Assembly: GCF_900070355.1 (NCBI RefSeq)
Contig: NZ_LN849456.1
Location: 248,001 to 312,000 of the forward strand
Length of the DNA stretch: 64,000 bases
Direction of reading: 5' to 3'
Source: Devriesea agamarum
GTDB lineage: Bacteria; Actinomycetota; Actinomycetes; Actinomycetales; Dermabacteraceae
Within the stretch, counting starts at the first letter, position 1, and each line of letters starts with the position of its first letter. This document shows, piece by piece, positions 58,474 through 64,000 of the stretch. The notes under the pieces are model-generated. The model was not told the DNA's origin, did no database searches, and saw only the letters and a program-made list of their open reading frames with translations. Made by a program: the position numbers and the translations under genes.

Positions 58474-61272
58474 GTGAGCACTATCAACACGTTCGGTGCG
58501 AGGACCACGCTCAACGTCGGTTCTCAGGATTACGAGATTTATGCGCTCAAGTCAGTTGAGGGCGCCGACCGGCTTCCTTACAGCCTGAAGGTGCTGCTCG
58601 AAAACCTTCTGCGCACCGAAGACGGCGCCAACATTACCGAGGAGCACGTCCGCGCCTTGGCAGGATGGGACCCCAGCGCCGAACCGGACACCGAAATCCA
58701 GTTCACCCCAGCGCGCGTGATCATGCAGGACTTCACCGGGGTCCCCTGCGTGGTGGACCTCGCCACCATGCGTGAAGCTGTGGCCGACCTCGGGGGAGAC
58801 CCGCACCGGATTAACCCGCTAGCCCCCGCCGAAATGGTGATCGACCATTCCGTGATGATCGATATCGCGGGTCGCCTCGATGCGCTCGAACGCAATATGG
58901 AGCTCGAATACGAGCGCAACCGCGAACGCTATCAGTTCTTGCGCTGGGGCCAGACAGCATTTGACGACTTTAAAGTGGTGCCGCCCGGCACCGGGATCGT
59001 GCACCAGGTCAATATCGAATACCTGGCCCGAACGGTAATGACCCGTGAGGTTGAGGTCGACGGCAAAACCGTGCTGCGCGCCTACCCCGACTCGTGCGTC
59101 GGCACCGACTCTCACACCACGATGGTCAACGGTCTCGGTGTTCTCGGCTGGGGGGTTGGCGGTATCGAAGCCGAAGCAGCCATGCTCGGACAGCCGGTGT
59201 CCATGCTGATTCCACGAGTCGTCGGGTTCAAACTCACCGGCGATATCCCGCCCGCAGCCACCGCCACCGACGTGGTGCTCACCATCACCGAGATGCTGCG
59301 CAAACACGGCGTGGTCGGCAAATTCGTTGAGTTCTACGGCGAAGGGGTCGCCGCGGTACCGCTGGCAAACCGCGCCACCATCGGGAACATGAGCCCGGAG
59401 TTCGGTTCAACCTGTGCCATCTTCCCCATCGACGATGTGACTATCGACTATCTCCGGTTGACCGGACGCAGCGATGAACAGCTTGCGCTCGTCGAGGCGT
59501 ACGCAAAGGAACAGGGCATGTGGCTGGACCCCTCCCGCGAGGCGGTCTATTCCGAATACCTGGAACTGGACCTGTCTACCGTTGTGCCCTCCATCGCCGG
59601 CCCGAAGCGCCCCCAGGACCGGATCGTGCTCACCGACGCGAAAAAGGCTTTCCGACAGGTCCTTCCCAGCTATGTCGGTGCCGATGCAGAGGCTTCAGAC
59701 GAAGCAGCTGACGTGGCATCCTCGTTCCCCGCCTCTGACCCCGCCACACCGGAATCAGACCCCGAAGGCGAAAGCTCAGCCCCGGAAAAAACCGCCGTCG
59801 TCGGCCGAGCAAGCAAACCCACCCCGGTGAAGGGGCACGACTTCACCATCGACCACGGCATCGTGTCAATCGCCTCCATCACCTCCTGCACCAACACCTC
59901 AAACCCGTCAGTGATGATGGCCGCCGCATTGCTCGCGAAGAACGCCGTGGACAAGGGCCTTTCCGCAAAGCCATGGGTGAAAACCTCCATGGCCCCCGGA
60001 TCCAAAGTGGTCACCGACTACTACGAAACCGCTGGACTATGGCCCTACCTGGAAAAACTCGGCTTCCACTTGGTGGGATACGGGTGCACCACCTGCATCG
60101 GGAACTCTGGCCCGCTCGCCGAAGAGATCTCCGCAGCCATCAATGACGCCGACCTTGCAGTGACCGCCGTGTTGTCCGGGAACCGCAACTTTGAAGGCCG
60201 CATCAACCCCGACGTGAAGATGAATTACCTGGCTTCACCGCCGCTGGTCATCGCATACGCCTTGGCGGGGACGATGGACTTCGACTTCGAGACCGACCCG
60301 CTCGGCACCGACCCCGACGGCAACCAGGTGTTCTTACGCGATATTTGGCCCTCACCCGCCGACGTGGAAGACACCATCGCCCGAAGCATCACGCAGGAAA
60401 TGTTCCGCAAGGACTACTCAGATGTCTTCACCGGCGACGAACGGTGGCGCGCCCTGCCAACCCCAGACGGCGCCACCTTCGCGTGGAACGAGGACTCCAC
60501 CTACGTGCGCAAACCCCCGTACTTTGAGGGCATGGGGCGCGACCCGGAACCAGTCACCGACATCACCGGTGCCCGGGTGCTGGCCAAACTCGGTGACTCC
60601 ACCACCACCGACCACATCTCCCCAGCTGGAGCGATTAAGGTCGACTCCCCGGCCGGACGATACCTGCGTGAACACGGCGTTGAGCGCAAGGATTTCAACT
60701 CCTATGGCTCCCGACGCGGCAACCACGAAGTGATGATCCGCGGCACCTTCGCCAACATTCGGATCAAAAACCAGTTGCTGGACGGCGTCGAAGGCGGTTA
60801 CACCAAGAACTTCCTGACCGGTGAACAGGCGTTTATCTACGACGCTGCCCAGGACTACGCCGCAGCGGGCGTCCCGCTCGTAGTACTCGCCGGCAAGGAA
60901 TACGGCACCGGATCCTCGCGCGACTGGGCAGCTAAAGGCACCAAACTCCTCGGAGTGCGGGCGGTCATCGCTGAATCTTTTGAACGCATCCACCGCTCAA
61001 ACCTGATTGGGATGGGCGTGCTGCCGTTGCAGTACCCCCAAGGTGAAAACGCTGAATCTCTTGGCCTCACCGGGGAAGAAATCTTCGCGATTTCTGGCAT
61101 CGCTGCGATCTCGAACGGTCCCGCCCCGCGCGCCGTGCACGTGGTTGCCACCGCGCCCGACGGCAAAGAAACCAGCTTCGACGCCGTGGTGCGCATCGAC
61201 ACCCCCGGAGAAGCGGACTACTTCCGTCACGGCGGCATCTTGCAGTACGTGCTGCGGCAGCTTGTCGGCTAG
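58474..61272 (+). CDS. acnA: Aconitate hydratase (AcnA/IRP type)
   Basis: Citric-acid-cycle enzyme of 932 residues interconverting citrate and isocitrate. The [4Fe-4S] ligands are C472 (SCTNTSNPS), C538 and C541 ([10 protein letters not shown]). Other blocks: [33 protein letters not shown] and [11 protein letters not shown]. An acidic Ser/Pro/Glu-rich insert of ~50 residues (about 403-455) lies between the first three domains and the Cys472 segment, so the protein is longer than usual. GTG start preceded by AAGGAG. Confidence 0.96.
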
Positions 61273-61413
61273 GAAGTGAGCTGCGAGGTTATCGGGCTGA
61301 TAGGCGGTCTGGTGACTGATGCGGTCTCGCTATTGGTCCGTTAGGGCGTGTAGCAGTGAGACGTTTATCGGCGTGTATGGATCATGCACGCGGCTCTCCG
61401 TAAGGGCGTAACG

Positions 61414-61457
61414 AACACCCTGCCAGGCTTCGGCTTGGCAGGGTGTTTTGTTGTTTA
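61414..61457 (+). terminator. Terminator after acnA
   Basis: Positions 61414-61428 pair with 61433-61447 (15 bp with one G-T wobble) around a TTCG loop, followed by TTG and TTGTTT. Confidence 0.85.
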
Positions 61458-61630: not shown

Positions 61631-61659
61631 TTGACAATAAATGTGGGCGGTATCACAAT
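61631..61659 (+). promoter_or_regulatory. Promoter of the ApeA-like gene
   Basis: Consensus TTGACA (61631-61636) is followed by 17 nt and CACAAT (61654-61659). Transcription would begin near 61666, giving a leader of about 31 nt. Confidence 0.65.
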
Positions 61660-61696
61660 GATAGCTGTAATGTTGATTGATGAGGAAAGAAATACG

Positions 61697-63133
61697 ATGA
61701 GTGATCCATTAAATCTTGACGGTTCCTATGAGTGGTCGGGCCACTGGTGGCTACCGGGCAATCCGGACAATAAAGTGGATGGTGCGCTTCGGTATGACAA
61801 ACATAAGGGTCTCGAACTATCCTTAATTGGCGGGTTTGATGACCGCAGCATAGAAAGATCCTCGCATAATGTGACCACCATTCGAGCATGCACGCAGGAG
61901 TGGGATGTAATTTTCGGTAATGCTGAGGATTGCAAAATCACGCTTATAGATGGCGCGCCTAGGTATACTCCGCATCGAGTCTGCTATGAGTCGATAAAGC
62001 TTGAGAAGCAGATTATTGTGGCGGAAATTGCTCTCGTTGGTGCTCATGTAAATAGTGAGAATGAGCCAAAATTCTCCATAGGGCAAGTTTCCGTTGAAAA
62101 CTTAGGTAGTTGGGCCGTTTCGTCGCGACCTTTTTGCGATTCGGATGTTTTTGGGGTGAGAGTAAAGAGTGATAGTGGCGAAGAGTTTGCTTTAGGTCGA
62201 TACCCTTCGGATTTTGTTGACGATGGGAAACCCGGTATGGATGTCAATTCCATCACCAATGCTGTGTACATGCAGTTTTCGTCACCCATTCCCTATTCTT
62301 TGGGAAGTGCAATCTCGCGTGTTCAATCAATCCAGAGCCTAATAACGTTCGCAGCTCACCGCGCAGCTGGAGTGATATGGTTGCGTTTAAAAACTATGAA
62401 TTTAGCTTCAAGTTTTCAAAGTGATAAAGCTGCGTTAACAGTCGATGTAATCTATCCGCCTAATATAGTAGGAAACTCCAAGGCTGAAGATGTCGAACGT
62501 CGCCATATGCTTTTAGCTTGTGATAGCGCAATCTTTGAGAGGGTTATCTTAGGCTGGCTAGATGTGTGCGAAAGTCTCCTCCCGGCGACGAACCTGCTCC
62601 TTGTGTTCCACTATGCATCAGACCGTTACATTGAAAGTTTGATACTTATGGCTGTTGGTGCTGCTGAAGCGCTGCATCAAAGTCTAGGCATAGATGAGTT
62701 ACCCATGCCTAAAGAAGTATTCGGTGAAATACGTGAAAATATGCTCACTCAAGCACCCAAAGACCTACGTCCGCGCTTTAAATCCATGATTCAAAATAGG
62801 ATGACACTCCGTGAACGGTTGCTTGCACTCGCCGCCAGGCCGGACCAGCAAGCGGTCTCGAAAATTGTATTGGACGTCGAGTTGTGGGCGAAGAAGGCAG
62901 TGCGTGCGCGTAATGAGCTCGCGCATACAGCCGCCACTAAAAATCATTCACTGGAGGAATTGTTCGCAATCGTAGAGGTCACTAGGGCTGTCGTAACCTT
63001 GAATATCCTGCATGAACTTGGCGTGTCTCCCGAACGGCAGCGGGAAATTGTCGAAAGAAATCGGTGGATGCGTGGAGTTGTGAAGCAATCCAAACACTGG
63101 TTTAAGGGACAGGATGACGAATCGCCCAAGTAG
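61697..63133 (+). CDS. ApeA-like HEPN-domain protein, probable abortive-infection gene
   Basis: Protein of 478 residues. The N-terminus (GHWWLPGNPDNKVDGALRY, about 14-32) matches ApeA N-terminal domain 1. The C-terminal ~180 residues resemble the ApeA-type HEPN domain, with the RNase motif R405-N-x3-H410 (RNELAH). ApeA proteins are single-gene anti-phage defences thought to cleave RNA on infection. ATG 61697 is chosen because GAGGAAAG lies 7 nt upstream; the longer frame from 61631 starts inside the promoter. AT-rich and codon use unlike its neighbours (many AAA, ATA, TTA), a sign of transfer. No partner gene. Confidence 0.8.
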   Translation: MSDPLNLDGSYEWSGHWWLPGNPDNKVDGALRYDKHKGLELSLIGGFDDRSIERSSHNVTTIRACTQEWDVIFGNAEDCKITLIDGAPRYTPHRVCYESIKLEKQIIVAEIALVGAHVNSENEPKFSIGQVSVENLGSWAVSSRPFCDSDVFGVRVKSDSGEEFALGRYPSDFVDDGKPGMDVNSITNAVYMQFSSPIPYSLGSAISRVQSIQSLITFAAHRAAGVIWLRLKTMNLASSFQSDKAALTVDVIYPPNIVGNSKAEDVERRHMLLACDSAIFERVILGWLDVCESLLPATNLLLVFHYASDRYIESLILMAVGAAEALHQSLGIDELPMPKEVFGEIRENMLTQAPKDLRPRFKSMIQNRMTLRERLLALAARPDQQAVSKIVLDVELWAKKAVRARNELAHTAATKNHSLEELFAIVEVTRAVVTLNILHELGVSPERQREIVERNRWMRGVVKQSKHWFKGQDDESPK

Positions 63134-63561
63134 CCTGTAGGGGTCTTGTGTGTTTTTCGTCATAACGTCACTAGGAAGCGCTGATTAGTGATCGATATAT
63201 TCGGTAGCTAATCCGCCGCCAACTAGTTGAGATAACGCCGAATTGTGCCCATTTTGTGTTATCTAAGTTGCCGTTTTGCTTTGGGAGATTTGACATTTTC
63301 TGACTCTAATACGTTCTGCGAGGTCGGTCGGTGTGAGTCTGGCCTGTTTGCGTACCTCACGGAGGCGGTAAGTCTGAATCTTAGCGAGCTTCCATTCTTT
63401 ACGGGTCATGACTTACGCGCGATCAATGGGATGTTTAATAATAAAATCCTTAAGGGAGAAGACCTTCGTAATCACTCTCTTTTAACTTGTTCAAGTGATC
63501 GTTAAAAGACCATCGGCTATAGAAGTTTTTGCACCAGCGATTTTTCGTGCAAACCTTACTA

Positions 63562-63708: not shown

Positions 63709-63790
63709 GGTGGTGCGTCATATCGGTGCAGAGCTCGTGAAGGTATGCACACATGTGAGTGAAAAGCTCGTCGTAGCTGGTCGGCGGGGT

Positions 63791-63829: not shown

Positions 63830-64000
63830 ATGACCACGACTGTGCCGGAGCTCGCCGTGCTAGATGAGATCACTCCAAGTGCCCTGCGTGCACTCGGTGC
63901 ACAGGAGCTCCCACAGCTCGCAAGCGACCTGCGCCGCCGGTTAGTGGAAACGGTGTCCATCCACGGCGGTCACTTGGGGCCGAACCTCGGGGTCGTGGAA
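63830..64000 (+). CDS. dxs: 1-deoxy-D-xylulose-5-phosphate synthase (3' end outside window)
   Basis: First enzyme of the non-mevalonate isoprenoid pathway, thiamine-diphosphate dependent. Only the first 57 residues are in the window; they match the family N-terminus (PSALRALGAQELPQLASDLR, then GGHLGPNLGVVE). The ATG is preceded by GGGAGGAAAG. In M. tuberculosis dxs1 (Rv2682c) also lies in the same conserved neighbourhood as dut and trk. Confidence 0.92.
   Translation, partial: MTTTVPELAVLDEITPSALRALGAQELPQLASDLRRRLVETVSIHGGHLGPNLGVVE

Follow-up and report, generated by a model that had tools for sequence, protein, structure and literature searches.

An apparently intact but divergent ApeA family gene between acnA and dxs of Devriesea agamarum

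INTRODUCTION

The anti-phage system ApeA was reportedly tested in Escherichia coli by Gao et al. in 2020. In a commentary, the ApeA of that study is described as having HEPN domains (PMC7699616), and a review table places the tested ApeA under the HEPN family PF18735, a label under which this table groups several systems and which may be loose (PMC10952713). The ApeA domain family as such, i.e., PF18862 together with PF18739 (ApeA/BMEI1217 HEPN), is treated in a 2013 survey of HEPN proteins, in which the N-terminal domain (ApeA-NTD1) is characterized as abundant, poorly conserved, mostly beta, approximately 300 residues long, fused to HEPN, and with several conserved aromatic residues (PMC3710099). 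RnlA, PrrC, Csm6, and Cas13 carry a HEPN domain with an R-x4-6-H motif; HEPN RNases are listed in a further article, which also cites a preprint whose title refers to the activation of ApeA by deoxydinucleotides (PMC13405049).

Here, we analyze an apeA-like gene of Devriesea agamarum. The window, i.e., the whole stretch of DNA that was analyzed, comprises 64,000 nucleotides (bases 248001-312000 of a 2.96-Mb contig, which is the single contig of the genome). The encoded protein, referred to as the window protein, has in common with the ApeA domain family the two-domain order as well as a similar length, the R-x4-H motif, an occurrence as a single gene, a patchy distribution, and often mobile or defense surroundings; it differs in being only 39-43% identical to the nearest clade. 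With RnlA, PrrC, Csm6, and Cas13, it shares the HEPN domain and the R-x4-6-H motif, while its putative sensor, the ApeA N-terminal domain, sets it apart from such RNases.

RESULTS

The gene is open and encodes both ApeA domains

The features of the region are given below in window coordinates. We take the flanking genes to be acnA (aconitase) and dxs. The family sample consisted of 47 genomes judged to be Dermabacteraceae, including that of D. agamarum, which is the only one of its genus.

58474-61272, plus strand: acnA, the left core flank; open frame of 932 aa, matched in 47/47 family genomes
61413-61448, plus strand: terminator-like hairpin after acnA; 16 pairs and a T-rich tail
61631-61659, plus strand: promoter-like TTGACA-17-CACAAT upstream of apeA; 10/12 consensus match, by itself no proof of function
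61682-61689, plus strand: Shine-Dalgarno-like GAGGAAAG just 5′ of the ATG at 61697
61697-63133, plus strand: apeA-like gene; intact frame of 478 codons (478 aa) from the ATG at 61697 to a stop ending at 63133
61730-62557, plus strand: ApeA_NTD1 domain, residues 12-287 (PF18862, E = 1.8e-32); mostly beta strands in the model
62645-63034, plus strand: HEPN_Apea domain, residues 317-446 (PF18739, E = 4.8e-20); helical in the model
62909-62926, plus strand: RNELAH, the R-x4-H motif at residues 405-410; R405 and H410 present in 42/42 other ApeA proteins
63194-63475, minus strand: decayed HigA-like (XRE) antitoxin gene with in-frame stops; 44% identity over 95 residues to an intact relative (G021)
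63736-63758, plus strand: short pre-dxs element common to relatives; aligned in 8/20 oriented relative intervals (82-95% identity)
63830-64000, plus strand: start of dxs, the right core flank, which runs past the window edge; matched in 30/47 family genomes (E 1e-60)

The mechanical open reading frame of apeA begins at a TTG at 61631. Because this codon lies inside the promoter-like match and GAGGAAAG precedes the ATG at 61697, we take the ATG as the start. The promoter-like matches around apeA are weak and no commoner than expected by chance (2 found versus 2.9 expected from shuffling), and a single terminator-like hairpin was found near the acnA end versus 2.5 expected. A plus-strand open reading frame at 63245-63505 had no Pfam or PADLOC match and was rejected as a gene because the decayed antitoxin gene lies on the opposite strand.

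Based on Pfam, the window protein matches PF18862 with 113.4 bits (cut-off 25.5; profile positions 1-271 of 271) and PF18739 with 72.8 bits (cut-off 24.4; positions 1-135 of 136). Thus, the profile search that had been proposed in a preliminary description of this DNA yielded both profiles named there, and the assignment of an ApeA N-terminal domain and a HEPN domain made in that description, its gene coordinates of 61697-63133, and its motifs GHWWLPGNPD and RNELAH at residues 405-410 are all correct. ABC-ATPase, CARF, CRISPR, and antitoxin domains were not matched in the window protein in Pfam, and NCBIfam gave no match at E 5. Among the PADLOC models, two of PDC-S58, which we regard as a candidate label only, match at 4.4e-37 and 3e-13 and a third only at 0.0098, and the Cas13-ApeA model matches at 5.7e-9.

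To describe conservation, we used 42 other ApeA proteins, of which 31 are from an actinobacterial clade, two from distant genomes, and nine plasmid borne. The window protein keeps 14/14 of the columns that are invariant in these proteins (G15, W18, G29, L41, G74, L83, G115, W139, W287, E324, H327, R374, R405, and H410) and 6/8 of those conserved at ≥95%. That it belongs to the ApeA domain family is nearly certain, and the gene is apparently an intact but divergent member of this known family.

The resemblance to the ApeA of Gao et al. lies in the name and in the description as HEPN. PF18739 is matched, and PF18735 is not at E 10, by the window protein and by one relative each from Streptomyces and E. 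coli. Set against the PF18735 entry in the review table (PMC10952713), this suggests that the window protein and the experimentally tested E. coli ApeA may, judging from their sequence families, be less close than the common name implies. As a separate observation, E. coli SC418 (L153) was the only one among 5426 E. coli genomes with a DNA relative of a Photobacterium plasmid apeA at the sensitivity used; this relative has both ApeA domains and is located between integrase genes marked incomplete.

The predicted structure has a beta-rich N-terminal and a helical C-terminal half

An AlphaFold model built from 36 rows (mean pLDDT 83.7, pTM 0.82) was used instead of an earlier, poor 8-row model (pLDDT 63). 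Up to approximately residue 252, the model is mostly strands, although residues 202-220 form a long helix; from residue 280 onward, it consists of helices. The pLDDT is mostly around 90 in the C-terminal half, and the model is least certain at residues 172-187 and 237-243. The beta-rich model and the kept tryptophans agree with what the survey says about ApeA-NTD1 (PMC3710099).

In the structure prediction that had been suggested earlier, the C-terminal half is helical, and its alignment to HEPN toxins is weak, with Z scores of 5.7 for 8yuf_B (3.4 Å, 111 residues) and 5.2 for 8xeh_D (3.1 Å, 102 residues), where Z scores below 8 are suggestive and no proof; both alignments fall within residues 291-442. 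For the N-terminal domain, the best VIA-align rows were Hcp tube proteins (Z 4.9-6.2), which we read as a common barrel arrangement and not as kinship. Foldseek searches with the model against the PDB and viral models returned nothing at E 0.001; one viral protein model was reported at E 0.041 with a probability of 0.93. Because phmmer and profile searches of solved structures found no solved ApeA relative by sequence, we infer the HEPN dimer and the signal pocket discussed below.

The window protein is an outlier of the actinobacterial clade

The window protein is 39-43% (median 41%) identical to 30 actinobacterial clade members, while these members are 51-99% (median 66%) identical among themselves; identity to 11 other ApeA proteins (nine plasmid borne, two distant genomic) is 16-26%. 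These values support the earlier proposal that this is a divergent actinobacterial member of a described system, ApeA, and no new system. An IQ-TREE analysis of 45 rows places the window protein within an actinobacterial clade of 27 rows (100/100); its nearest rows are three from Dermabacter and Brevibacterium, with incomplete support (90/97). Its end branch is 1.45 versus a median of 0.22, and long branches are placed insecurely. The ApeA tree mixes genera, as expected for transfer.

The window protein departs most from the clade consensus at residues 161-200 (8/40 in agreement) and 241-280 (10/40) and least in the HEPN core at residues 401-440 (28/40). Eighteen columns present in >80% of the clade are missing from the window protein, and it differs at 11 of the 77 columns that are invariant in the 31 clade rows. 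We found no close relative suited to measuring selection. This outlier status could mean that the trigger differs or that constraint is relaxed.

The preliminary description had noted a diverged body, which these data bear out, and had taken it to mean that the trigger may be new; the divergence by itself does not establish this because nine of the 14 invariant residues have positions up to and including 287, all of them are kept, and the 2013 survey already describes the domain as poorly conserved (PMC3710099). A related possibility is that the window protein represents a divergent ApeA branch in which the N-terminal domain senses a signal other than that of the main actinobacterial clade, with the HEPN output unchanged. 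The low agreement at 161-200 and 241-280, the 18 missing columns, the well-kept HEPN core, and the long branch would all fit this; however, every universally invariant N-terminal residue is kept, the stretches at 172-187 and 237-243 are also those of least certainty in the model and may be variable loops, and ApeA-NTD1 is poorly conserved in general (PMC3710099). Altogether, we consider a changed signal unlikely.

The gene has foreign composition and lies at a variable site

Composition was compared among window genes of ≥200 aa, called with a home-made gene caller and with apeA measured from 61643. Among the 38 called genes, apeA has the lowest GC3 and the most deviant codon use: its GC is 0.47 and its GC3 0.46 versus a mean GC3 of 0.67 and a minimum of 0.55 for the 37 other genes, and its codon divergence is 0.223 versus a mean of 0.083, a standard deviation of 0.032, and a maximum of 0.179. 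The picture given earlier of an AT-rich single gene with foreign codon use between acnA and dxs is, therefore, accurate.

While acnA was matched in 47/47 family genomes and dxs in 30/47 (E 1e-60), ApeA was matched in 7/47. In 28 family genomes, including that of D. agamarum, acnA and dxs are adjacent on one contig. The gap between them, measured from the match ends, is 196-480 bp in 22 and 1875-6156 bp in six of these co-linear genomes; in D. agamarum, it is 2561 bp. This gap contains apeA in D. agamarum only (1/28) and lacks it in the other 27; the second apeA carrier among the 28 (G043) has the gene on another contig. Thus, the survey of the acnA-dxs interval called for in the preliminary description shows a patchy gene. 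Likewise, the outcomes that it had named as speaking against its reading did not occur: the profiles matched, the C-terminal half was predicted to be helical, and the gene was neither conserved family-wide at this locus nor normal in codon use. Separately, we noticed that dxs was unmatched at E 1e-60 in 17/47 family genomes, including all four of one genus (g3; 99-100% complete), which could reflect loss of a pathway gene or an over-strict cut-off.

The five other filled gaps hold mixed cargo: a 5TM/ECF-like membrane protein (G023), an unnamed protein (G015), a PQQ-propeller protein (G037), a TetR protein with an aldo-keto reductase (G033), and, by eye only, sensor-kinase-like and other genes (G010). 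A PADLOC search with the three cargo proteins of G023, G015, and G037 gave no match. This mixture argues that the acnA-dxs gap is a variable site and no dedicated defense site.

A TGCACA-ATGTG block related to the pre-dxs element is present in 15/20 relative intervals, and the element or the block is present in 4/5 of the other filled gaps. Because the pre-dxs element is common to relatives, the insert can be placed between the acnA hairpin and approximately 63720, and composition places it at roughly 61.5-63.6 kb of the window. No tRNA was found in the 64-kb window, and the acnA-dxs interval did not match Rfam at E 1; thus, no tRNA-type attachment site was found. The apeA-like gene, an insertion between acnA and dxs, was quite probably acquired horizontally. 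We also observed that a block like GTGAAgATnTGCACAGATGTGA and the part following it (63720-63790) lie upstream of dxs in 15/20 relative intervals, perhaps as a shared regulatory site.

In Brachybacterium sp. YJGR34 (G025), approximately 13 kb separate acnA from the contig end, and an apeA lies on the same strand 9 kb downstream of acnA. Based on PADLOC, this stretch also holds a ThsB-like TIR protein (2.1e-73), a PycC-like cyclase (3.9e-98), and a Tmn-like P-loop protein (7.5e-42). Since dxs is located on another contig, 318 bp from the contig end, the two contigs probably join, which would place this apeA at the same site; the joining is an inference. The YJGR34 ApeA is 92.5% identical to a Brevibacterium sp. 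CS2 protein and 40.3% identical to the window protein. These identities disfavor one ancestral insertion for both genes and make separate arrivals more likely.

apeA is patchily distributed and has unlike neighbors

ApeA_NTD1 was found in 7/47 family, 41/396 order (40 above the cut-off), and 12/396 phylum genomes, the D. agamarum genome being included in each, and in 0/14 control genomes. With the window protein as query, relatives were found in 3/396 phylum genomes and in 19 records of a plasmid collection, all at <60% identity, and none in phage records, viral contigs, or a first scan of species genomes; the Photobacterium relative as query matched one unannotated phage record at 23%. At least 37 actinobacterial apeA loci were obtained from the species-genome collection by means of two short patterns.

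Among the 357 called neighbors at 32 apeA loci, we sought a conserved operon partner and found none; no gene family occurs at more than 10 of the loci. By eye, ychF is the commonest neighbor (10 of the 32 loci), followed by an ABC-transporter family (7) and a family resembling type I restriction (4). When 112 neighbors from the 32 loci were compared with PADLOC at 1e-10, the best 25 of 164 matched families included type I restriction (at least three), oligonucleotide-cyclase (at least two), and type II methyltransferase (at least two). By comparison, 53 household proteins of the window and downstream matched 55 families, the best 25 of these each in one protein. Because the counts do not discriminate, the case for a defense neighborhood rests on the kinds of matches. 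Relatives' apeA genes adjoin unlike neighbors, and no intact partner is present between acnA and dxs in the window; these genomic data suggest that apeA may work as a single gene.

The gene that we presumably recognize as ychF from its start, GLPNVGKSTLFNALT, is located upstream of apeA on the same strand, at 21 bp to 6.6 kb, in 14/37 actinobacterial loci from several genera (L070, L076, L078, L080, L085, L090, L092, L093, L096, L097, L098, L101, L103, and L105, with L092 and L093 among those that are close kin). The stretch downstream of ychF is likely an insertion hotspot. A study on pneumococci describes a satellite prophage upstream of ychF (PMC10383233).

In four related Rhodococcus plasmids (L107:5290-5949, L113, L114, and L116), a gene for an RNase_T-type 3′-5′ exonuclease lies directly upstream of apeA; in L116, an IS3 element splits apeA. 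At E 1e-3, the other scanned apeA sequences contained no relative of this exonuclease; its position would be suggestive if ApeA answers to DNA dinucleotides.

A HigA-like antitoxin gene is broken beside the open apeA

The statement in the preliminary description that no defense gene is adjacent holds for intact genes; it overlooked the decayed HigA-like gene on the minus strand at approximately 63194-63475. This remnant matches the intact antitoxin of G021 with E 1.7e-22 against a 697-base stretch, or 2.1e-8 when scaled to 1 Mb; in G021, the antitoxin gene follows its own HigB-like toxin gene (names by eye). The remnant alone matches HTH_19 at 0.0025, which is under the Pfam cut-off. A 67-aa piece of it has matches in 8/47 family genomes (D. 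agamarum included) and in eight plasmid records with an XRE or helix-turn-helix annotation. In YJGR34, the side of apeA that faces dxs carries a shorter remnant of this antitoxin family (L015:421-546), and a seemingly intact HigBA pair follows apeA in Rothia nasisuis (L085:11910-12724). HigBA-type genes or remnants were found at these three distinct loci and no others among 59 apeA sequences scanned (some are duplicates); of 16 control stretches, only L012, which overlaps the window, matched. With only three distinct loci, we rejected HigBA as a partner of apeA.

With the antitoxin gene broken and the adjacent apeA still open, it seems that apeA is being retained. Could apeA itself be a relic, having arrived with a toxin-antitoxin module that is now being lost together with it, and encode a nonfunctional protein? 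The broken neighbor, the long branch of the window protein, and damage to apeA elsewhere (an early stop in L089 and a late stop in G042) would be in line with such decay, but 478 open codons, the retention of 14/14 invariant residues, and a start region with a Shine-Dalgarno-like site make it very unlikely. Several apeA copies are split at contig ends, have stops, or match only partially (L007/L008 of G007, L005 of G042, L089, and L103-L105), as would be expected if the gene is frequently acquired and lost.

Only the broken HigA-like gene was found next to apeA and no cognate antitoxin, e.g., MNT. Although, among solved structures, the C-terminal half is best matched by toxins of HEPN-MNT pairs and R. 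nasisuis has a HigBA pair after apeA, it is highly improbable that the window protein is a HEPN toxin of a toxin-antitoxin pair or a household RNA-processing enzyme instead of a defense protein, given the lack of an intact antitoxin-like partner between acnA and dxs, the small number of HigBA-type loci, the patchy distribution, and the different architecture conferred by the ApeA N-terminal domain.

DISCUSSION

In our judgment, it is quite probable that D. agamarum gained this gene by horizontal transfer and that it encodes an apparently functional anti-phage protein of the ApeA domain family, acting as a one-gene system. The anti-phage reading is supported by the matches to PF18862 and PF18739, the kept residues, the patchiness, the codon use, the kinds of neighbors (including the ThsB-, PycC-, and Tmn-like proteins in YJGR34), and the decayed antitoxin gene beside an open apeA. 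This role is deduced from the family and its neighborhoods, and the trigger and the RNA target are putative. According to this model, the window protein would be a sensor and effector in one: the beta-rich N-terminal domain would bind a signal made during phage infection; binding would rearrange a HEPN dimer such that R405 and H410 of two subunits form one RNase site; and the activated RNase would cut RNA and stop translation, so that the infected cell arrests and releases no phage. Deoxydinucleotides could be such a signal, if the preprint title cited in PMC13405049 applies here.

We speculate, with little expectation that it will hold, that two further elements come together at this locus: a diverged ApeA whose re-tuned sensor responds to another phage signal than the main actinobacterial clade and an acnA-dxs gap that serves as a small site at which interchangeable cargo docks recurrently and in which ApeA was taken up twice beside remnants of one antitoxin family.

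Beyond the identification made in the preliminary description, the present analysis adds the site survey, the broken antitoxin neighbor, and the association with ychF. Defense genes outside large islands may be sought at two kinds of places, between acnA and dxs in this family and downstream of ychF in many actinobacteria. Moreover, this ApeA, isolated and distant from the main actinobacterial clade, helps to ask which N-terminal residues read the infection signal.
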